DNA from: Blastocatellia bacterium | GTDB lineage: Bacteria; Acidobacteriota; Blastocatellia; HR10; J050 | NCBI GenBank assembly: GCA_026985075.1 | Contig: JALSQX010000080.1 | Location: forward strand, 32,501-96,500 | DNA length: 64,000 bases | Direction: 5' to 3' | Shown: piece by piece, positions 7,349-33,104 of the stretch | Position numbering within the stretch: position 1 is the stretch's first letter | Layout of the letters: every line of letters begins with the position of its first letter | Translations under genes and position numbers: made by a program | Notes under the pieces: model-generated | Database searches by the model: none | What the model was told of the DNA's origin: nothing | Seen by the model: the letters and a program-made list of their open reading frames with translations, nothing else

Positions 7349-8896
7349 TTATCGGATCAGCGCCAGCCAATGAGCGAAGAGCTTCTTGACGAACGGGGTC
7401 AACCGCGTCCGGTTGTAAGCATCAGCCGCCTTTCGAATGGCTTCCGCCTGCGTCGGATAGGGATGAATGACCGAGGAGAGACTTCCCAAACCGATGCCTT
7501 TGACCATGGCCAGCGTAAGTTCATTGATCATCTCGCCAGCATGGCGAGCAACGATGATGGCGCCGAGGATCTTGTCGGTTCCCTTCTTCACCGTGATCTT
7601 GACGAATCCTTCTTCCTCCCCATCAGTTATGGCTCGATCCACTTCGCTCATGGGCATCATGAACGTGTCCACGGACAGCCCTCGTTGCCGAGCATCTTTC
7701 TCCGATAATCCCACATGAGCGATTTCCGGATCCGTATAGGTGCACCAGGGGATGGTCAAAGCGCTCAGTTTCTTCCGGCCCATGAAGAGGGCATTTTGAA
7801 TGACGATTCGCGCTGTGGCGTCAGCCGTATGGGTGAATTTGTAAGGGAGGCAAATATCGCCAGCGGCGTAGATGCGCGGGTTCGTGGTTTGAAGGCGATC
7901 ATTGACCAGGACACCTTTTCGTCGATCATACTTCACTCCCACCGCCTCCAGATTGAGTCCTTCGACGTTCGGCGCGCGACCAACGCCGATGAGAATCTCA
8001 TCGACTACGATGCGATCATGCTTGCCCTCGGTTTCCAGGTGCAATTCTTTCCCTCCACCAGTCAACGTGACCCGAGTGAGCCTGGTACGCAATCGAACAT
8101 CTACTCCCTCTCGCCGGAACACCTCGGTGAGCATATGTGCCGCATCGGGATCCTCGCGAATGAGCAGTTGGGAGGACATCTCGACCAAGGTGACTTCCGA
8201 ACCGAGTCGACAGAACGTCTGGGCCATCTCACAGCCGATGGGCCCACCGCCGATGACGGCCAACCGCCGAGGCCGCTCGGTTAATGAAAAGACGGTCTCA
8301 TTGGTCAAGTATCCCGCCTCGGCCAACCCAGGGATTTGTGGTTCGACAGCGCGCGCGCCGGTGGCAATGACGGCTTTCTTAAACCGCAGCCTTTTGCCGG
8401 CGACGTCAATGGTGTCTGCCCCGGAGAATCGACCCTCTCCTAAGAACACATCCACGCCCAGCTCCTGGAAGCGCGCCGCCGAATCATGATGACTGATGCG
8501 CGCGCGGATCCGCCGCATCCGCTCCATGACGGCCGAAAAGTCGACCTCCACTCCCCAGGAGACCCGCACTCCGAACTCATGAGCGCGGCGAACGTCGGCG
8601 ACGGCGCGCGACGAACGGATGATCGATTTTGAGGGAACGCAGCCCACGTTGAGGCAATCGCCTCCCATCAAATTCTTTTCAATGAGAGCGACCTTCGCCC
8701 CCAGGCTGGCCGCGGCAGCGGCCGTCACCAATCCGGCCGTCCCGGCGCCAATGACGACCAGGTTGTATCGCTTGGCGGGTTCTGGATTCACCCAATGGGG
8801 TGGATGTACGTTGGCCACGAGGCGGACATTATGTTCGTCCCGAGGTCGCACGTCGGGAATGTCACTGCTGACCGTTAGGGATTCCGTCTTCGTCAT
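7349..8896 (-). CDS. MerA-like pyridine nucleotide-disulfide oxidoreductase
   Basis: An FAD/NAD(P)H flavoenzyme of the mercuric reductase/dihydrolipoamide dehydrogenase superfamily. It has an FAD-binding GAGTAGL near residue 50, the redox disulfide in GGDCLNVGCVPSKS (Cys81, Cys86), NAD-binding GGGPIGCE, and a C-terminal dimerisation domain with TDPEIAHVG. It lacks the N-terminal HMA domain and the C-terminal vicinal cysteine pair of true mercuric reductase, so mercury reduction should not be assumed. The start ATG lies right after the TVP38 stop (TGACATG) with GGAGG upstream, so the pair is coupled, a common pairing in bacteria. It is the last gene of the putative arsenosugar operon. Confidence 0.9.
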   Translation of the reverse strand: MTKTESLTVSSDIPDVRPRDEHNVRLVANVHPPHWVNPEPAKRYNLVVIGAGTAGLVTAAAAASLGAKVALIEKNLMGGDCLNVGCVPSKSIIRSSRAVADVRRAHEFGVRVSWGVEVDFSAVMERMRRIRARISHHDSAARFQELGVDVFLGEGRFSGADTIDVAGKRLRFKKAVIATGARAVEPQIPGLAEAGYLTNETVFSLTERPRRLAVIGGGPIGCEMAQTFCRLGSEVTLVEMSSQLLIREDPDAAHMLTEVFRREGVDVRLRTRLTRVTLTGGGKELHLETEGKHDRIVVDEILIGVGRAPNVEGLNLEAVGVKYDRRKGVLVNDRLQTTNPRIYAAGDICLPYKFTHTADATARIVIQNALFMGRKKLSALTIPWCTYTDPEIAHVGLSEKDARQRGLSVDTFMMPMSEVDRAITDGEEEGFVKITVKKGTDKILGAIIVARHAGEMINELTLAMVKGIGLGSLSSVIHPYPTQAEAIRKAADAYNRTRLTPFVKKLFAHWLALIR

Positions 8897-8897
8897 G

Positions 8898-9632
8898 TCA
8901 AGCCTCCACACTGGTCTCCTTCTCTTTCAGTTTCGTTCGAGCGTATCTCACCAGCACCACCAGGATGACGCCAGCCCCGACCAATGCTCCAATCAGCGTC
9001 CAAGGTATCTCTCCCCGAGCTATGCCGCTGAATATGGCATCCGCTCCCACGACATAGAGCACCGTGCCCGGCAGCATGCAGAGCCAGGACCAGAACACAT
9101 ACGTCCAGAATCGGACGCGCGTGAGCCCAAAGCCATAATTCAACAGGTTGAAGGGGAACAGGGGAACTAACCGCGTCAAGGCCACGATGATCGCGCCATG
9201 TCGTTCGGTCAGTTCGTCCAGCCGGCGAAACTTTTCGTTGGTGGAAAGCCAACGGGCGACGGCATCGCGGGCAAAATACCGGGCGACGAGAAAGGCCAAA
9301 CTCGCCCCCAGCGTCGACCCGAAGCTGACGACGATCACGCCGAGCAGAGAGCCGAACAGAGCCCCGGCAGCAACGGTCAAGGCCGATCCCGGAAGGGCGG
9401 CCACCACAGCTACAGTATAGAGGAAGACGAAGACCACCGGCCCCCACGCGCCCAATGATTCGATCCATTGGCGCAGCTCGCCTAATCGCTCGCCCACGCC
9501 GAATATTTTGGCCAGAACGAATACAATGATGAGCACGGTGAGGAGGGCGAGTGGCCTCCACCACCCTCGCGTTCGGCCTGCCGGGTTGGCCTCTCCCGTT
9601 TGAGGCGACACCTGAGGTTGGGATTTCATCAC
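8898..9632 (-). CDS. TVP38/TMEM64 family membrane protein
   Basis: An integral membrane protein of the VTT (DedA-like/SNARE-associated) superfamily. It has a hydrophobic helix near 27-45 and the family core from about residue 65: GPVVFVFLYTVAVVAALPGS, GALFGSLLGVIVVSFGSTLGA and the re-entrant LVPLFPFNLLNYGFG. Relatives are proposed lipid scramblases or membrane-homeostasis transporters. The start is GTG at 9632 (or ATG at 9629), just past the stop of the DUF547 gene with AAGGAG upstream. It is sandwiched between a DUF547 lipoprotein and a MerA-like flavoenzyme, which suggests an envelope redox or metal-handling module. Confidence 0.88.
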   Translation of the reverse strand: MMKSQPQVSPQTGEANPAGRTRGWWRPLALLTVLIIVFVLAKIFGVGERLGELRQWIESLGAWGPVVFVFLYTVAVVAALPGSALTVAAGALFGSLLGVIVVSFGSTLGASLAFLVARYFARDAVARWLSTNEKFRRLDELTERHGAIIVALTRLVPLFPFNLLNYGFGLTRVRFWTYVFWSWLCMLPGTVLYVVGADAIFSGIARGEIPWTLIGALVGAGVILVVLVRYARTKLKEKETSVEA

Positions 9633-10514
9633 TTACTGTCTCCTTTGCTCATTGAGCGACCAGTCATAATCGAGATACTCGATCTTGTATGCTCCTTTTT
9701 CCAGATACTCCCGGTCAGCAGGATCGAGATACCGACTGATGAAATGAAGCACGGCTCGTTCTTCTCGACGATGTCCCGGGAACCGCTCGTCGGTGCCATA
9801 CTGGTTAACGAAATCGCTCCCGAACCACTTGAAGATGGATGACAGAGAGACGATGCCTCTGCGGCGAGCGATGTGGAATTTCTCCGGGTTTGAGAGGAAT
9901 CGACGCGCTTGATCGTCGAGCTGCTCATCGAGGCGATCTCCGACATACGGTTCATTCCTGAGCGGCGGACACCCCATCGCTGCACAAACGAGGGCCATAT
10001 GGATGCGCGGCTCATGGAACTTCGCGCGGAGCACGTCATGCTCAATCTCGTCCAGCGTCATGGCCCGACCCATCACTTCAAATGTGAGCTCATCCCACAC
10101 GCCGGGAATCTGCCGAATGCTGTTCTTCGGATAGATGAGCGAAAAGCCGAATCGCGGCTTGATGGGATAATGGCTGACGATCGCTTTCACCGTCAAGGCG
10201 TTGTAGGCATTGATCCAAAAAGCGATCTTCTCCGCATTGCCCCACTGCTCGTAGGTATGAGGATCGAGAGCGGCCACCGCTTGAACGAAGGCATCCAATC
10301 GTTGGTGATCAGCTTTCAATCGGCGATACTCGACCAATCCCCGGTCATCGACATAGGCTTTGAGAACGACAGCATAGGGGGTGTAAGAGAATCGATCGCT
10401 CATCGCTCGGGTCGCCTTCGTCGCCCGCGGAAGCGGATCGCTCCCCGACGAACACCCTCCCCAAGCGAATCCGAGCACCACCAAAGCTGCACTCACGAGG
10501 ATCTTTTTATGCAT
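9633..10514 (-). CDS. DUF547 domain lipoprotein
   Basis: A 293-residue exported protein. The start MHKKILVSAALVV at 10514 is supported by AGGAGGAGG just upstream; the hydrophobic leader ends in a GGC lipobox-like site (Cys21). The DUF547 core is clear: EKIAFWINAYNALTVKAIVSHYP, FGFSLIYPKNSIRQIPGVW, LDEIEHDVLR, HMALVCAAMGCPPLRNEPY and a final VEYLDYDW-like strand (IEYLDYDW). The conserved His, Cys and Asn positions hint at an enzymatic, papain-like-fold activity, but no function is established to my knowledge. It lies 56 bases after arsS on the same strand. Confidence 0.88.
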   Translation of the reverse strand: MHKKILVSAALVVLGFAWGGCSSGSDPLPRATKATRAMSDRFSYTPYAVVLKAYVDDRGLVEYRRLKADHQRLDAFVQAVAALDPHTYEQWGNAEKIAFWINAYNALTVKAIVSHYPIKPRFGFSLIYPKNSIRQIPGVWDELTFEVMGRAMTLDEIEHDVLRAKFHEPRIHMALVCAAMGCPPLRNEPYVGDRLDEQLDDQARRFLSNPEKFHIARRRGIVSLSSIFKWFGSDFVNQYGTDERFPGHRREERAVLHFISRYLDPADREYLEKGAYKIEYLDYDWSLNEQRRQ

Positions 10515-10570
10515 CAGGTCCTCCTCCTGCACGTCATACCCTCAAATCGATCGTTCATTTGGCAAAAATC

Positions 10571-11524
10571 TCACACTAATGCCCCACGACAGGACGAACC
10601 GCGCCCGGCCGTACAACCGAAGCAGTGCAGGCCAGTGACGATCTTTCGTCGAATCAACGCCTCGGGATCACCATCCTGGACGCGCTTGGGGGCCCCATGA
10701 TCAACGGGCAGGTTCAGAGCCAGATTGAAATCACAATCATAAATGCGCCCGTCCCAATCGACGTTGATCTGATGCCGGCACATCAATCCCTCCACCGTCT
10801 CCGGATTGAACGACCGCTGCAACAGGTTCAGGTACTCCTGGTCCTTGCCCTGTCGCACCAGATCAACTTGGAACCGCCCAATCGGCATGTTGGTGATAGT
10901 CAACAGTCGGGTGAAAACGATGCCGAACCGAGCCCACAGCTCACGCCGGTAGTCCTCTTCCAACTTGGCCTGATCCGGTGGCAGAAAAGGTCCCACCGGG
11001 TTGTAAACCAGATTCAACGGGAGTTCGGGATCGCGCCCATAGCCGAGGTCGTTCAATAACCGGATGGCCTCGATGCTCTTCTCGTATACGCCCTTTCCGC
11101 GCTGGCGGCGAACGTTTTCCTCCAAATAGCACGGGAGCGAAGCAGTGAGGTGAACCCGGTGATCGCGGAAGAATTCAGGCATCGCCTCCATCTCGGGCAG
11201 CAACAGGACCGTCAAATTGGTCCGCACCTGCACCGTATGTCCGCGCTCCCGAAGGGCCACAATGAACCGGCGGAGATGAGGGTTGAGTTCCGGCGCGCCA
11301 CCGGTGATATCGATCAATTGCGCTCCCAGTTTGTGGGCGATGTCGATGATCGATTCCATCGTCGGCCAATCCATCATCTCCGTGCGTTGGGGAGAGGATT
11401 GGACGTGACAATGTACGCAGGCCTGATTACACTTCAGTCCCACGTTCACCTGTATGGTTTCAATGTCGATGCTGTATAATCCCTGACCGGTGAGTTCTGT
11501 GATTTTCTTCTCAAATTCATTCAT
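10571..11524 (-). CDS. arsS: Arsenosugar biosynthesis radical SAM protein ArsS
   Basis: A radical SAM enzyme expected to use adenosyl chemistry on a methylated arsenical to make 5'-deoxy-5'-dimethylarsinoyl-adenosine, the arsenosugar precursor. The [4Fe-4S] motif CNQACVHC is at residues 32-39. DITGGAPELNPH follows, and the Cys-rich C-terminal domain has GLMCRHQINVDWDGRIYDCDFN and GLHCFGCTAGRGSSCRG. This C-terminal block (DUF3641) defines the radical SAM/Cys-rich group, some members of which are selenoproteins. Here every relevant position is Cys. The ATG has GGAGGTGTGAGCC upstream. It sits in an arsM-PiT-arsS cluster, which strengthens the call. Confidence 0.9.
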   Translation of the reverse strand: MNEFEKKITELTGQGLYSIDIETIQVNVGLKCNQACVHCHVQSSPQRTEMMDWPTMESIIDIAHKLGAQLIDITGGAPELNPHLRRFIVALRERGHTVQVRTNLTVLLLPEMEAMPEFFRDHRVHLTASLPCYLEENVRRQRGKGVYEKSIEAIRLLNDLGYGRDPELPLNLVYNPVGPFLPPDQAKLEEDYRRELWARFGIVFTRLLTITNMPIGRFQVDLVRQGKDQEYLNLLQRSFNPETVEGLMCRHQINVDWDGRIYDCDFNLALNLPVDHGAPKRVQDGDPEALIRRKIVTGLHCFGCTAGRGSSCRGALV

Positions 11525-11611
11525 GGCTCACACCTCCGTGGCTTCCTGAGGAACGGGAAGCACGAGACGGATGTCGTATAACATGTGGCGCGAAATGTGC
11601 CGCGTGATATC

Positions 11612-12742
11612 TCATAAGACTCCTTGAGTCAACCAGAAAAGCCATCCGCCCAGGAGAGCTGCTAATGGGAGCGTGGTGATCCAAGCGGCCAGGATTTCCG
11701 CGACGGTCTTCCACCGAAACGCGCGATTGACCAAACCGATCCCGAAGATGGACCCACAAGAGACGTGCGTCGTTGACACGGGAAATCCCAATGGCGAGGC
11801 GAACAGCACGAGCAGTGCGGTGACCAGATTGGCCGTCAATCCCTGACCCGTGTTCAGATCGGTGATGCGCTTGCTCATCGTCTCGGCCACGCGACGCGCG
11901 TTGAGCACGCCTCCCAAGACCATCGCCGCGGCCACCAGGCTGAGTCCCCACGCGGAGTTCCAGGCGGGAGCTGCCAATAGCAAGGCGGCGATTTTTGGCG
12001 TATCGTTCACCGCCCGACTGAAACACACGGCGCCGGCGCTGAGGTAATGAACGGTATCCACACAGGTCTGCGCATCCACGCCGACGAATTGACCCTGATA
12101 CCGCTCGACGCATTGCTCTCTCTCGCCCACGGTCAAGCGCAATCCTGAGGCGGCGAACACGGCCGATCCATCGGGTTGAAGAGCAATCGGTTGTGGCGCC
12201 TGATCGGCCAAACACACGCAGGTGTGTTTGGTCACCCCCAGCGCGCGTCGCAGCTTCCGGAGCGGTATGTAGAGAGCCGCGGCCATCCCAATGGCGATGG
12301 CTGGACTGAGCAACAATGGTCCGGCAAAGGTATGCGTTACTGTTCCCCAACTGACGCCTTGCCCAGAAGCGACCAGAGCCACGCCGATCAGCGCGCCGGT
12401 CAATGCATGCGTCGTCGACGTCGGTAGTCCGAGCCGAGTGGCCAAGAAGATGGTGAACGCAGCGGCCATTCCCACGGCGATGAGCAAGTGTGAGGTGCCG
12501 ACGAGCGATGCGGGAACCAATCCTTTCCCGCTGAAGACGACCAGCAGCTTACTGGCGGCAAATACAGAGACGAGACTTCCAGCGGCCGTCGTCACCGTGG
12601 CCCAGAGCAAGGCTTTTTTATAACTCGTCGTGGCGCTCCCGTAGAGCGTGGCCACTCCTTTGAAGTTATCATTCGCTCCATTACTATAGGCCAACCACAA
12701 GACGGCGAGAATGAGAATGAATGTCGTCATAGGCTTCCCCAT
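11612..12742 (-). CDS. PiT-family inorganic phosphate transporter with Cys-rich loop
   Basis: A polytopic inner-membrane symporter of the PiT family with both family signatures: WLAYSNGANDNFKGVATLYG at the N-terminus and SRAVNDTPKIAALL in the second repeat, plus GLPTSTTHAL and GFPVSTTHVS. The central loop between the repeats (about residues 175-235) is cysteine-rich: KHTCVCL, REQCVERYQG, AQTCVD and GAVCFSR. Because phosphate and arsenate are analogues and the gene lies between arsM and arsS, an arsenate, methylarsenical or phosphate role is plausible but unproven. The start MGKPMTTF at 12742 is chosen over a GTG at 12763. Confidence 0.9.
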   Translation of the reverse strand: MGKPMTTFILILAVLWLAYSNGANDNFKGVATLYGSATTSYKKALLWATVTTAAGSLVSVFAASKLLVVFSGKGLVPASLVGTSHLLIAVGMAAAFTIFLATRLGLPTSTTHALTGALIGVALVASGQGVSWGTVTHTFAGPLLLSPAIAIGMAAALYIPLRKLRRALGVTKHTCVCLADQAPQPIALQPDGSAVFAASGLRLTVGEREQCVERYQGQFVGVDAQTCVDTVHYLSAGAVCFSRAVNDTPKIAALLLAAPAWNSAWGLSLVAAAMVLGGVLNARRVAETMSKRITDLNTGQGLTANLVTALLVLFASPLGFPVSTTHVSCGSIFGIGLVNRAFRWKTVAEILAAWITTLPLAALLGGWLFWLTQGVL

Positions 12743-12801
12743 CAAGCGGGCTCTCCCGCCCACGGTCTAGGTGAACAGAAAGGGAACATCGACACAGCGC
12801 A

Positions 12802-14016
12802 TTAACATCCTTCAGGTCCGCAATCGCATGCCGGCCCTTCGCTGAGGATCGTCTCCCGATATTCCAATCCTTTCGTCTCGCGCGGGTGTCGCGTTCCCGT
12901 TCGCTTACACTCGAAAGGCCCCGCCTCCTCGAGGGGAATGTCTTCATATGGAGGGACGGGAATGATGTCCCGGCTGTAGGGGCCATCCGGGTTGGTCAGA
13001 ATGTTGAACGTCTTGTCGCACACCGCCATCCGCTGACCCCGATAGTAAGTGTGTCCATCGTCATCGCGGACGAATTTCCATGGCCCCTTGTAGATGACGG
13101 CCTGGTTGCGCTCCAAGCAAGGGCCCTCCTTCCCTTTGAAGGCCCGAACGGTCATGGAGCGGAATTCAATCCCATCAATGACTTGCCAGGGTTCCTCCTG
13201 GCGGGTGAGGATTTCAATGCCGTAGAATCCGGCTTGCTCGAACATCTCCAAAAACTGATCTTCGCGAAACGCCCCGGCAATGCATCCACTCCACAATTCG
13301 GGATCGGCCAGAATGTTCGGCGTCGGATCCTCGTCACACACGATATCAGAGATCACGGCTCGCCCTCCTCGCTTCAGAACCCGGAAGATCTCAGAAAACA
13401 ACTTCTGCTTATCCTGAGGACGGACGAGGTTCAAGACACAATTGGAGACGACGACATCCACGCTGGCATCGGGGATGAGCGGTTCCTCTCGCCGCAGTCG
13501 TTCGCATTCGGCCTCGAAGTCGCTGAGCTGCTCCATGGATTGAACCGGATGTCGCCGCAGCCAGGCCTCGGCCCGCTCCAGATCAAGAGCCAGATCCTGG
13601 ATCTTTCCTTTGACGAAACGCACGTTCGCGTAACCGAGTTTCTCGGCCATCTCGGGAAGGTATTTCCTGGCCAAAGCGAGCATTTCGTCGTTGAAGTCGA
13701 CACCGATGACGGCCCCTTCCGGCCCCACCTTCTGAGCCAGAATATAACAAATCTTGCCCGCTCCCGATCCCAAATCGACGACCGTCTCACCAGTGGACAC
13801 GTATACAGAGGGATCGCCGCAGCCATAATCTTTCTCTACAATTTCCTGCGGCAATAACTTCAGGAAGCGATCATCATATTGAGTGGGACAGCATAACGCC
13901 GGTTGGGCCTGGCGCGCGCCCTCGCCATAACGGCGCAGGACTTCGCGCTCAACGTTGTGAAGGGACGTCCCTACGGGCACGGAACGACCACCATTCCCCG
14001 TTATGGGCTTGACCAT
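12802..14016 (-). CDS. arsM: ArsM-type arsenite S-adenosylmethionine methyltransferase
   Basis: A cytosolic Rossmann-fold methyltransferase of about 404 residues. An N-terminal cysteine region reads ALCCPTQYDD (Cys42, Cys43) and VEKDYGCGDPS (Cys66). The SAM site is VVDLGSGAGKICY near residues 79-91, with VIGVDFNDEML following. VVSNCVLNLV is next, and the tail ends CDCGPEGC. Conserved cysteines around the SAM site and the DYGCGDP motif are typical of the methyltransferase found beside ArsS in arsenosugar clusters. It would methylate As(III) ahead of ArsS. Related selenocysteine-containing methyltransferases are, I believe, known; this copy has Cys. AAGGAG precedes the ATG. Confidence 0.85.
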   Translation of the reverse strand: MVKPITGNGGRSVPVGTSLHNVEREVLRRYGEGARQAQPALCCPTQYDDRFLKLLPQEIVEKDYGCGDPSVYVSTGETVVDLGSGAGKICYILAQKVGPEGAVIGVDFNDEMLALARKYLPEMAEKLGYANVRFVKGKIQDLALDLERAEAWLRRHPVQSMEQLSDFEAECERLRREEPLIPDASVDVVVSNCVLNLVRPQDKQKLFSEIFRVLKRGGRAVISDIVCDEDPTPNILADPELWSGCIAGAFREDQFLEMFEQAGFYGIEILTRQEEPWQVIDGIEFRSMTVRAFKGKEGPCLERNQAVIYKGPWKFVRDDDGHTYYRGQRMAVCDKTFNILTNPDGPYSRDIIPVPPYEDIPLEEAGPFECKRTGTRHPRETKGLEYRETILSEGPACDCGPEGC

Positions 14017-14122: not shown

Positions 14123-14761
14123 TTATGACCGGAGTGGTTCACCAGAGCTTGGCGAAGAGGGTCCGCTCGATGTCCGGGTCGGGCTGGTCCCTCGATCGGG
14201 GCCCATCCCTCGCAGCAATTGCCTCATCTTCAATCTCGCCTTATGGAGCTGCGATTTGGCCGTCCCCACAGCAATGCCCAACATCTGGGCGATCTCCTCA
14301 TGTTGGTATCCTTCGATATCATGCAACACAAACACGGTGCGGTATCCCGGAGGGAGCCGAGCAATGGCCCTCTCCAGCGCAATACGATCTAACCACAGCC
14401 CGTCTCTGCGCGATCCAGGTGGCGCGCTCCCCGGCATGGGGCTGAGCCCACCATTCGCTTCGTATTTGAGCTGGCGTTGCTTGTGCCGCAGAAACATGAG
14501 GGCCGTGTTGACTGCCAATCGATAAAGCCATGTAGATAGCGCTGAATCTCCCCGAAAGGTCCCAATCTTCTGAAAGAGACGAATAAATACGTCCTGGGTG
14601 ACCTCTTCGGCGTCCAGGGGATCCCCCAGCATGCGCAAACAGATGGAATAGACCTTTCGGACGTGGGATCGATAGATCGTTTCAAATGCCCACTCATTGC
14701 CCGCCGCTGAGGCTTGGGCGAGCTCAAGATCGGTGCCCGGTATAGTGTCAGCGACTCTCAT
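14123..14761 (-). CDS. ECF-type RNA polymerase sigma factor
   Basis: A sigma-70 family factor with region 2 (YRSHVRKVYSICLRMLGD, AEEVTQDVFIRLFQKI, STWLYRLAVNTALMFLRHKQ) and region 4 (IARLPPGYRTVFVLHDIEGYQHEEIAQMLGIAVGTAKSQLHKAR). The start at 14761 follows GAGAGGAAAGTAGC; an upstream in-frame start would overlap the preceding CRP-like gene. No anti-sigma gene accompanies it, unlike the other ECF gene at 21 kb. It lies between the CRP-like regulator and arsM, 106 bases before arsM, so it may drive that operon, but no cognate promoter could be assigned. Confidence 0.92.
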   Translation of the reverse strand: MRVADTIPGTDLELAQASAAGNEWAFETIYRSHVRKVYSICLRMLGDPLDAEEVTQDVFIRLFQKIGTFRGDSALSTWLYRLAVNTALMFLRHKQRQLKYEANGGLSPMPGSAPPGSRRDGLWLDRIALERAIARLPPGYRTVFVLHDIEGYQHEEIAQMLGIAVGTAKSQLHKARLKMRQLLRGMGPDRGTSPTRTSSGPSSPSSGEPLRS

Positions 14762-14801
14762 GCTACTTTCCTCTCCCCGGGAGAATGGAGATGTCCCGAG
14801 G

Positions 14802-15659
14802 TCACTCATCACGGCCACCACGCGTCGGACATGGTGCCACAAGCCCTCGATGATCGTCCTCCGTAATAGGCCGGTGACGTGTGGATGATCCCTCGGCGTG
14901 GGAGCTACACCGTGCTCGGATCGTCGCTCCAGTCCATCGAACCATCTCCAGAGATGGCCTGAGGTGATATCGTGTCATCCCGCTCAGCTTCGACCGCCCT
15001 TCGCTCCAGAGTAGGTCCTCTCTTATAGAGATTTGACCGCGTCGATATGCAACCCAACGCTCACGGGCCAATGACGGCATCCAGTGCGAGACCGTTTCCC
15101 GATAGACCCCCAGAAGTTGAGCCAGTGTTTCATGTGTCACCCTGGCAATGTAAATACGCCCGTTCCTCCGGATCCCGAACTTCTCGGCTAACTTGAGGAT
15201 GACCACTCTCAATCGCTGCTCGACGGAATGAAAGGCCTGACTTTCGATTTCCTCCTCGAGGAGTCTGATCCGGTGACAAAGCAGTTGGAGGAACGAATGT
15301 GCCCACTGGCCGTCGCGCCAAATCAGTGTGCGGACGCGATCGATCGCGATGACGCCGACCGTGGTCGGCTCGCAGGTTATGGCCATCTCGGCGCGCTCCT
15401 CCCCGATCAGAGAGAGCTCTCCGAACACGTCGCCCTCCCCGAGGAGATAGAGAATCTTCTCTCTCCCCTGCCTCGATAAAAGGCTGATTTTCACCCTGCC
15501 GCTGATGATCATATATAACTCAGCCGCTCGAGCGCCGATGGTATAAATCGGTTGATTTTTACCATAATGCCTCTGGAGCGATTGACCGAATAACGTCGCC
15601 CATGAGTGGGAATGCCGCTCTCCGTCGGCTCTTCTGGATATCCGTCTCGTCGCCCGCAT
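14802..15659 (-). CDS. CRP/FNR-family transcription regulator
   Basis: A cyclic-nucleotide-binding-like beta barrel (IIRGRV-type GRVKISLLSRQGREKILYLL, GDVFGELSLIGEERAEM) is followed by a dimer helix and a winged HTH (VTHETLAQLLGVYRETVSHWM). No FNR-type iron-sulfur cysteines are seen in the sensor domain. At 285 residues it is about 50 longer than usual; the extra Arg-rich tail past the HTH does not look like a domain. It follows the receiver-only regulator by 27 bases and precedes the ECF sigma gene by 40, so the three regulators are probably co-transcribed. Confidence 0.9.
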   Translation of the reverse strand: MRATRRISRRADGERHSHSWATLFGQSLQRHYGKNQPIYTIGARAAELYMIISGRVKISLLSRQGREKILYLLGEGDVFGELSLIGEERAEMAITCEPTTVGVIAIDRVRTLIWRDGQWAHSFLQLLCHRIRLLEEEIESQAFHSVEQRLRVVILKLAEKFGIRRNGRIYIARVTHETLAQLLGVYRETVSHWMPSLARERWVAYRRGQISIREDLLWSEGRSKLSGMTRYHLRPSLEMVRWTGATIRARCSSHAEGSSTRHRPITEDDHRGLVAPCPTRGGRDE

Positions 15660-31646: not shown

Positions 31647-33104
31647 TTAGGAGTTGACCCCTTCCCTCAACTGCTCAGTGATGGCGTTCCCCCTCGTGGT
31701 GGCGAGAGTCATAGCAGAAGCTGAGTGATCGGGCTGCAGGGAGGCCTCAGTGGTCATCACCCGATGATTCAAGCCATTATTGAGGCCGTATGATAGCGCC
31801 CAATTGATGCCCAAGTTGATCGTCCAGAGAACGAGACGGCGCTTGTTGAGGGGCCACCCTCCCAACCGCCGATAAATCGAACGAGGACGATAGAACATCT
31901 TCCAGGCGCGACGGTAGACCTGCTCAACTTCGTGCCGGGCGAGGCGTGCGGGTTCGAAGACCAGATTCCCATAGGTATAATCGGTCCAATCGTGATTGAA
32001 GATGCGATCCTGAGCCAGCAACTCTTCTCGCAATCGTGTTCCGGGCAATGGAGTCATGATACTGAATTGGGCGAATTCCAGTTGAGCTTCGATGGCCAAC
32101 TCGACCGTTTTCTCGATAGTTTCCACCGTATCGGTCTCCAAACCGACGATGAACGATCCCCAGACGGCGATTCCATGTTCGCGGATACGACGAATGGCGG
32201 CGAGCATCTTCTCGGGCGCCGCATTACACCCGCCCAGTTTCCGGAATTCCGGACTCAAGAAGCTCTCCAACCCAATGAACAGAAACTTACATCCGCTCTC
32301 TTCGGCCAACCGAAGCATCTCTTCGTCGCGAGCGATGTTGATCGTCGCCTGTGAACCCCACTTGATTTTCAAGGGGATGAGCGCCTTCATCAACGCGCGA
32401 GCATGTTTAGGATGGCCATTGATGATATCATCGACGAAGAAAAGCTTCTTGGCTCCCGTGGCTTCAATCTCGGCGACGACATCCTCGATGGGACGGACGC
32501 GGAATTTCTGCCCGTTGATCGCCGTCACCGAACAAAAGTTGCAATCGAACGGGCACCCTCGCGAGGTTTGAATAGTATAGGGGACGAGATATTTCTCCCG
32601 TCGAATCAAATCCCAGCGCGGCAGTGGGTGATGTTCCATCGGTGGCAGGCGTCGAGGGCGATAGAGGCGCTGGAGACGCCCTCGACGAAAATCGTCGATG
32701 ATCTCCGGCCACGTCTCGTCCGCTTCTCCGATGGCCACGGCATCGCAATGGTGGAGCGCTTCCTCGGGCAACACGGTGGGATGGTTCCCCCCCATGACGA
32801 CGGTACTTCCTCGCGCGCGAAAGCGATCGGCGATCTGATAGGCGACATTGGCATTTCCGGTGAGGCTGGTGATCCCGACCAGGTCCGCCTCCACAGTGTC
32901 GTCGATGGGCTCGACGCATCCATCCATGATCTTCACTTCCACATCCGATGGCGTGTAAGCGGCCAATAGCGCGAGATTCAGAGGCGGGAACAGACTAGTG
33001 GCCTCGAAATTCAGGTGCTTCCTCATGAATGGGAACCGCCCGAGGATCTTGGGAACATGGTAACCGTTAAACACGTTGCTGGGATTGATCAACAGTACTT
33101 TCAT
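31647..33104 (-). CDS. B12-binding radical SAM protein
   Basis: A 485-residue cytosolic enzyme. An N-terminal cobalamin-binding-like Rossmann domain (KVLLINPSNVFNGYHVPKIL, PPLNLALLAAYTP, GITSLTGNANVAYQIAD, VVMGGNHPTVLPEEAL) is followed by a radical SAM core with SRGCPFDCNFCSVT, then KKLFFVDDIINGHP and FIGLESF. A C-terminal helical tail is typical of HpnP/BchE-like methylases. It may catalyse methylation or rearrangement of an unactivated carbon, for example in hopanoid or bacteriochlorophyll-type chemistry, but the substrate is not revealed. It has its own sigma-70 promoter. Confidence 0.9.
   Translation of the reverse strand: MKVLLINPSNVFNGYHVPKILGRFPFMRKHLNFEATSLFPPLNLALLAAYTPSDVEVKIMDGCVEPIDDTVEADLVGITSLTGNANVAYQIADRFRARGSTVVMGGNHPTVLPEEALHHCDAVAIGEADETWPEIIDDFRRGRLQRLYRPRRLPPMEHHPLPRWDLIRREKYLVPYTIQTSRGCPFDCNFCSVTAINGQKFRVRPIEDVVAEIEATGAKKLFFVDDIINGHPKHARALMKALIPLKIKWGSQATINIARDEEMLRLAEESGCKFLFIGLESFLSPEFRKLGGCNAAPEKMLAAIRRIREHGIAVWGSFIVGLETDTVETIEKTVELAIEAQLEFAQFSIMTPLPGTRLREELLAQDRIFNHDWTDYTYGNLVFEPARLARHEVEQVYRRAWKMFYRPRSIYRRLGGWPLNKRRLVLWTINLGINWALSYGLNNGLNHRVMTTEASLQPDHSASAMTLATTRGNAITEQLREGVNS

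Follow-up and report, generated by a model that had tools for sequence, protein, structure and literature searches.

Why does a transporter of the PiT/PHO4 family stand between the genes of two arsenic enzymes, and what does it carry? The question is raised by a window of 64,000 nucleotides (positions 32,501 to 96,500 of contig JALSQX010000080.1, assembly GCA_026985075.1) from a Blastocatellia bacterium of the Acidobacteriota, in which an earlier note had placed an arsM-PiT-arsS cluster at 10571-14016. All three genes lie exactly there, on the minus strand (coordinates here and below are those of the window):

12802..14016, minus strand: arsM-like arsenite methyltransferase of 404 amino acids with a Cys-rich tail, ACDCGPEGC (profile, PDB match and motifs)
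11612..12763, minus strand, probable start ATG 12730: PiT/PHO4-family transporter of the Cys-triad subfamily (PF01384, 215 bits)
10571..11524, minus strand: arsS, a radical SAM/DUF3641 protein of 317 amino acids (TIGR04167, 421 bits, cut-off 300)

Judging from its residues, the transporter belongs to a distinct PHO4/PiT subfamily found across many phyla, and this candidate is probably a dedicated transport part of bacterial arsenic metabolism.

How safe are the names of the two enzymes? ArsS scores well above the curated cut-off of TIGR04167 and also matches Pfam DUF3641 (178 bits) and Radical_SAM, and it carries CNQACVHC and FGCTAGRGSSC, corresponding to the CX3CX2C of radical SAM enzymes and the GCxxGxGSSC of DUF3641. 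Adenosylation of arsenic by ArsS has been reported (PMC12159101). ArsM stays below every curated cut-off that was applied (332 of 500 bits for NF040538, 187 of 263 for NF008823 and 126 of 400 for NF038099) and is an ArsM-like protein outside the trained models. Its best PDB matches are solved ArsM structures, and the cysteines of its YGCG, SNC and C(I/L) motifs line up with those of PDB 4KW7, which we take to be the arsenic sites of that enzyme. With CC at 42-43 and GCG at 65-67 in ArsM, the motifs that had been read earlier in both enzymes are in place.

The PiT itself is a clear member of PF01384 (215 bits against a gathering score of 33.7). Its AlphaFold2 model has a mean predicted local distance difference test (pLDDT) score of 82 and matches best, in the PDB, TmPiT 6L85 (template modelling scores 0.73/0.68). 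With TmPiT, Escherichia coli PitA and human PiT2, as representatives of the PiT/PHO4/SLC20 carriers, it shares the fold, the two-repeat plan, the Asp of both signatures and the S-T-T-H motifs. However, it differs from them in Asn24 changed to Lys, His239 changed to Arg, Glu301 changed mostly to Asn, and a loop insert that holds a C-x-C plus C triad. Canonical PiTs have GANDVANA-type signatures with His in the C-terminal one, while the window PiT reads NGANDNFKG and SRAVNDTPKI, where Arg replaces the His. The changes were followed in 140 aligned subfamily members and in 60 canonical controls (30 + 30 PF01384 members, the high-scoring loci among the matches listed):

12659..12661, minus strand: codon of Lys24 in NGANDNFKG (Lys in 140/140 subfamily members, Asn in 59/59 readable canonical PiTs)
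12014..12016, minus strand: codon of Arg239 in SRAVNDTPKI (Arg in 140/140, His in 60/60 canonical)
11828..11830, minus strand: codon of Asn301 (Asn in 134 and Ser in 6 of 140, Glu in 56/60 canonical)
12212..12220, minus strand: codons of C171-x-C173, with the first two cysteines of the triad (conservation in subfamily alignments)
12110..12112, minus strand: codon of C207, the last triad cysteine (conservation in subfamily alignments)

Lys246 is no mark of the subfamily, being present in 49 of the 60 canonical PiTs. The His replaced by Arg239 aligns with a His of human PiT2 whose change to Ala (H502A) reduces phosphate transport from 44.96 to 2.36 pmol/oocyte-hour (PMC3126765). These changes in the substrate region argue, at the level of residues, against plain uptake of phosphate, hence of arsenate, and name no substrate.

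Can the PiT nevertheless be an importer of inorganic phosphate? This is the main rival reading: phosphate would feed an MtnP-like phosphorolysis of the ArsS product, or uptake would have become tolerant to arsenate, and the triad would sense arsenic and shut the carrier. The fold and the PHO4 family membership, with the signature Asp and the STTH motifs kept, speak for it, and mtnP indeed adjoins the PiT on the plasmid cassette described below, with MTAP-like genes at some other loci. Against these stand the invariable Arg in place of the His needed for transport in human PiT2, the replacement of Asn24 and Glu301, and a separate canonical PiT that the window genome has on another contig, so that we regard phosphate import as unlikely, though well worth keeping in mind.

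The second mark of the subfamily is the thiol triad. The window PiT has cysteines at 171, 173, 207, 223, 236 and 325. The earlier note had counted several in the central loop (CVC, C, C, C); three of them hold, with Cys at 171, at 173 and at 207 in 81 of the 83 rows of the first alignment set in each case, and the other two do not: position 223 is Cys in 2 of the 83 rows and position 236, where the next helix begins, in 26. By their conservation, the meaningful loop cysteines are thus these three. The full triad is found in 134 of 140 subfamily members and in 0 of 60 canonical PiTs, most of which have no such loop altogether. The view that the PiT is unlike plain phosphate PiTs is upheld, and the objection that loop cysteines might be common in unrelated PiT proteins falls. 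The triad is present in 17 of 18 fetched subfamily PiTs of the Acidobacteriota set (the remaining one, L206, has Tyr at the first Cys) and in 28 of 30 of a second-phylum set, some genomes of which also belong to the first alignment set.

Is the triad then confined to arsenic loci? In the 140-row set, a member counts as linked if any of ArsM, ArsS and two other cluster genes lies no more than 8 kb away. By this definition all 74 linked members have the whole triad, as do 60 of the 66 unlinked ones (p 0.0097; this and all p-values below ignore shared ancestry). The comparison inside and outside arsM-arsS clusters therefore went against the idea that the loop cysteines are restricted to such clusters, and the Cys loop was rejected as a mark of ars-linked PiTs only. 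All six exceptions are unlinked, and in four of them the three cysteines are gone together; such a joint loss suggests that C171, C173 and C207 may form one joint site. These four PiTs without nearby ArsM or ArsS (L064, L092, L365 and L374) have kept Lys24 and Arg239, and are natural triad-less variants.

On which side of the membrane would such a site lie? Positively charged loops of membrane proteins tend to lie in the cytosol (the positive-inside rule), and since the start of the loop has a mean net charge of +3.1, the central loop is probably cytosolic. The large loop of human PiT2 is likewise described as cytosolic in the same study (PMC3126765).

If the triad does not mark arsenic loci, what ties this transporter to arsenic? 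Relatives were collected by one genome scan, from which the best 80 of 526 confirmed candidates were taken; as they were selected for their similarity to the window PiT, they are biased to its clade. ArsM and/or ArsS was in the fetched stretch in 39 of these 80, which belong to many phyla by their record titles, and absent from the stretch in 41, of which 16 have ArsS elsewhere in the genome. Two even samples free of this bias, covering two phyla, were searched with profiles: 297 genomes of Acidobacteriota, and 246 of the phylum to which a Phycisphaerae relative belongs. Many of the genomes are metagenome-assembled, so that absences are soft. In these samples ArsM or ArsS lies within 1.5 kb of 24 of 65 subfamily PiT loci as against 0 of 60 canonical loci (Fisher p 1.2e-8, not corrected for relatedness). 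ArsS itself is found in 10 of 22 genomes with a subfamily PiT versus 36 of 275 others in the first sample (p 4.8e-4), and in 23 of 44 versus 59 of 202 in the second (p 3.4e-3); where a genome has both, the two genes are at most 5 kb apart in 5 of 10 and 11 of 23 cases, respectively. The generic ArsM model NF008823 gives a borderline 24 of 44 versus 80 of 202 (p 0.050); this model scores ArsM of the window type in split pieces, that of the window itself in two stretches (187 bits). The genomic link to ArsM and ArsS is real and crosses phyla.

It might be thought that the PiT is a passenger, caught by chance in a gene-dense detoxification operon and without any role in organoarsenical synthesis; indeed, 36 of the 46 ArsS genomes in the Acidobacteriota sample lack it. 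This is very improbable, because the same neighbours are met again across many phyla and on a plasmid, and dN/dS (the ratio of nonsynonymous to synonymous substitution rates) of the PiT against its nearest relative is 0.10. With values of 0.08 for arsM and 0.03 for arsS, all three genes are under purifying selection.

Another possibility is that the subfamily carries some other, generally needed anion (a phosphonate-like one, for instance, or an oxyanion of sulfur) and has been recruited repeatedly to ars clusters, the triad being a structural zinc site. The many unlinked members in unrelated contexts, and the triad kept in 60 of their 66, fit this. So do the model scores, in which the CysP model for the PiT-related sulfate permeases (70.5 bits, cut-off 400) nearly equals that for PitA (80.5 bits), both scores being far below cut-off; for CysP the likeness is one of model score only. 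On the other side are the significant linkage to ArsM and ArsS, the loss of the triad in unlinked members only, and the co-occurrence with ArsS in both phylum samples, which leave this possibility on the doubtful side without making it negligible.

Is ArsS the partner, or arsenic methylation? At some loci, L100, L101 and L211-L214 among them, ArsM is the sole partner of the PiT; at others the partner is a protein in which radical SAM/SPASM and ArsM parts are fused. These two kinds of loci point to arsenic methylation as the shared partner, in many cases together with radical SAM chemistry, and not to ArsS by itself. Five of 37 loci first counted as having ArsS (L048, L055, L069, L073 and L085) have in fact radical SAM/SPASM-type domains fused to ArsM; the layout was checked in L048, L055 and L069, and L073 and L085 were judged by their matching layout. 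A separate clustering of 82 loci found ArsS in 32. Single open reading frames (ORFs) with an N-terminal radical SAM/SPASM-type part and a C-terminal ArsM part are seen at L048:15283-17907, L055:7405-9951, L069:11106-13664 and L034:11034-13043, the last running off the contig end, and such fusions, in records of Omnitrophota, Scalindua and Elusimicrobia, adjoin the PiT or lie close to it. It is possible that the fusion is a second kind of enzyme forming C-As bonds.

In a tree made by a quick method, and subject to a long-branch warning, the 140 subfamily members fall on one side of a branch that separates them from nine canonical PiTs. The label linked or unlinked changes at least 28 times on it, compared with 48.8 times in shuffles; linkage to the cluster genes is clustered on the tree, yet it has often been gained or lost. 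No phage relatives were found.

How mobile can such a set of genes be? Among 72,556 plasmid records, one, NZ_CP096121.1 of Acinetobacter portensis, holds a relative at E 1e-30. Its annotated run is arsS, a TVP38(VTT)-flavin adenine dinucleotide (FAD) oxidoreductase fusion, DUF547, the arsenosugar glycosyltransferases TIGR04283 and TIGR04282, a methyltransferase, the PiT, mtnP and a sterol desaturase, and the PiT, annotated there as inorganic phosphate transporter, keeps the triad, Lys24 and Arg239. This nearly complete arsenosugar cassette (L273, NZ_CP096121.1:135397-152452) is on the mobilizable plasmid pJNE5-X3_NDM-1, near transposase genes. The annotation shows no PiT near the plasmid ArsS loci of Hymenobacter, Thiodictyon, Pseudanabaena and Burkholderia glumae, the last of which has a major facilitator superfamily (MFS) transporter; the Cupriavidus record is without usable annotation. 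ArsS relatives on Burkholderia plasmids make up 47 of the 52 plasmid records with a match (H3-H48, H53), and the neighbours of ArsS on the BGR1 plasmid are an S-methyl-5'-thioadenosine phosphorylase, the MFS transporter and a sigma-70 family factor.

No description of a PiT in arsenosugar clusters was found in the open-access papers searched. A precedent is the arsQML operon of Burkholderia gladioli, in which a permease encoded beside arsM and a radical SAM gene exports the organoarsenical arsinothricin (PMC8552651). The operon of the window shares with it an ArsM, a radical SAM enzyme and a membrane permease in one operon; ArsQ, however, has a GntP-related annotation and not a PiT one, and the radical SAM enzyme there is ArsL.

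What, then, may the PiT do? Gene content, synteny, the subfamily, the residue changes and the conservation of the triad are direct observations. We propose, tentatively and with a little less than even confidence, that the PiT transports an oxyanion of the organoarsenical pathway and has a cytosolic thiol site for trivalent arsenic. The direction of transport, the cargo, the cytosolic side of the loop and the binding of arsenic are what we infer, as follows. ArsM would methylate As(III) and ArsS would add the 5'-deoxyadenosyl group, and the PiT, its binding region altered at three positions (to Lys24, Arg239 and Asn301), would carry an oxyanion of the pathway across the inner membrane. The genes around the PiT make an oxyanion from arsenic chemistry the simplest assumption for its cargo; the likeliest would be a pentavalent methylated or sugar-linked arsenical, moved outward, possibly in exchange for phosphate. 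The loss of an acid and the gain of bases may fit a lost cation coupling and a changed anion. Three thiols, if cytosolic, would fit a site for trivalent arsenic, and the triad most likely binds trivalent arsenic that ArsM produces or receives, and would gate or feed the carrier. A bolder version, which we consider rather improbable, makes the subfamily a class of PiT-derived organoarsenical exporters or exchangers, in which the lost acid at 301 and the gained Lys24 and Arg239 would have made of a cation-coupled phosphate importer a carrier for cation-independent efflux or antiport of pentavalent methylated or sugar-linked arsenicals, gated by the binding of trivalent arsenic to the three-Cys cytosolic loop.

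Several points weigh against the proposed arsenical transport. D21, S105, D243 and S319, common to phosphate carriers, are retained in the window PiT. The pLDDT of the loop is below 50 at 170-174 and 196-206, and the model gives no reliable geometry for the triad. Of the 140 tree members, 66 are unlinked; among the 41 relatives without local ArsM or ArsS, 25 have no ArsS anywhere, 15 of these with an ArsM-like gene and 10 with neither, many of them being metagenome-assembled genomes. The 36 ArsS genomes of the Acidobacteriota sample without the subfamily PiT count here too, and the thought that ArsS depends on it was rejected on their account. As about half of the subfamily is unlinked and most ArsS genomes are without the PiT, the substrate is still something we infer. 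Unlinked PiTs have no common neighbour beyond a sulfatase-like gene (5 of 63) and cytochrome-type genes (3-4). By eye, triad PiTs without nearby ArsM or ArsS at L031 and L006 adjoin a large molybdopterin-oxidoreductase-like ORF and a radical SAM gene, and at L072:9473-9976 a low-molecular-weight phosphatase or arsenate-reductase-like gene has an unlinked triad PiT directly downstream.

In the window, the three genes begin a tightly packed run on the minus strand from 14016 to 7349, arsM-PiT-arsS-DUF547-VTT-FAD oxidoreductase, with gaps, from arsM on, of 38, 87, 38 and 0 bases and then a 14-base overlap between VTT and the FAD oxidoreductase; two regulator genes lie upstream:

9633..10532, minus strand: DUF547 protein, a recurrent neighbour (25 of 82 clustered loci)
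8898..9632, minus strand: VTT (TVP38/TMEM64-type) membrane protein, a recurrent neighbour
7349..8911, minus strand: FAD-containing oxidoreductase (NF004991), MerA-like and below the MerA cut-off, a recurrent neighbour (30 of 82 clustered loci)
14123..14842, minus strand: extracytoplasmic function (ECF) sigma factor directly upstream of arsM, a possible regulator (same position in sister genome L017)
14802..15659, minus strand: Crp/Fnr-type regulator overlapping the sigma gene (profile match; kept in L017)

The oxidoreductase reaches 868 bits with NF004991 (cut-off 620) and 435 with the MerA model TIGR02053 (cut-off 454.45). The sister genome has an identical gene order, both regulators included; sigma-like and Crp-like ORFs adjoin the PiT also in L215 (by eye), and sigma-like genes recur at other loci. 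Promoter and terminator scans gave signals little above those of shuffled sequence. With known arsenosugar clusters, defined by ArsM and TIGR04167 ArsS with NCBIfam TIGR04282/TIGR04283 glycosyltransferases, the operon shares ArsS, an ArsM-like enzyme and the DUF547, VTT and FAD-oxidoreductase neighbours, but it differs in its built-in subfamily PiT gene and in having no glycosyltransferase directly in the operon.

Five residues, K24, R239, C171, C173 and C207, thus identify a subfamily that crosses phyla and is a direct candidate for organoarsenical transport. Its recognition corrects annotation that reads "phosphate transporter", and the subfamily offers a natural experiment in the change of substrate of a phosphate carrier.

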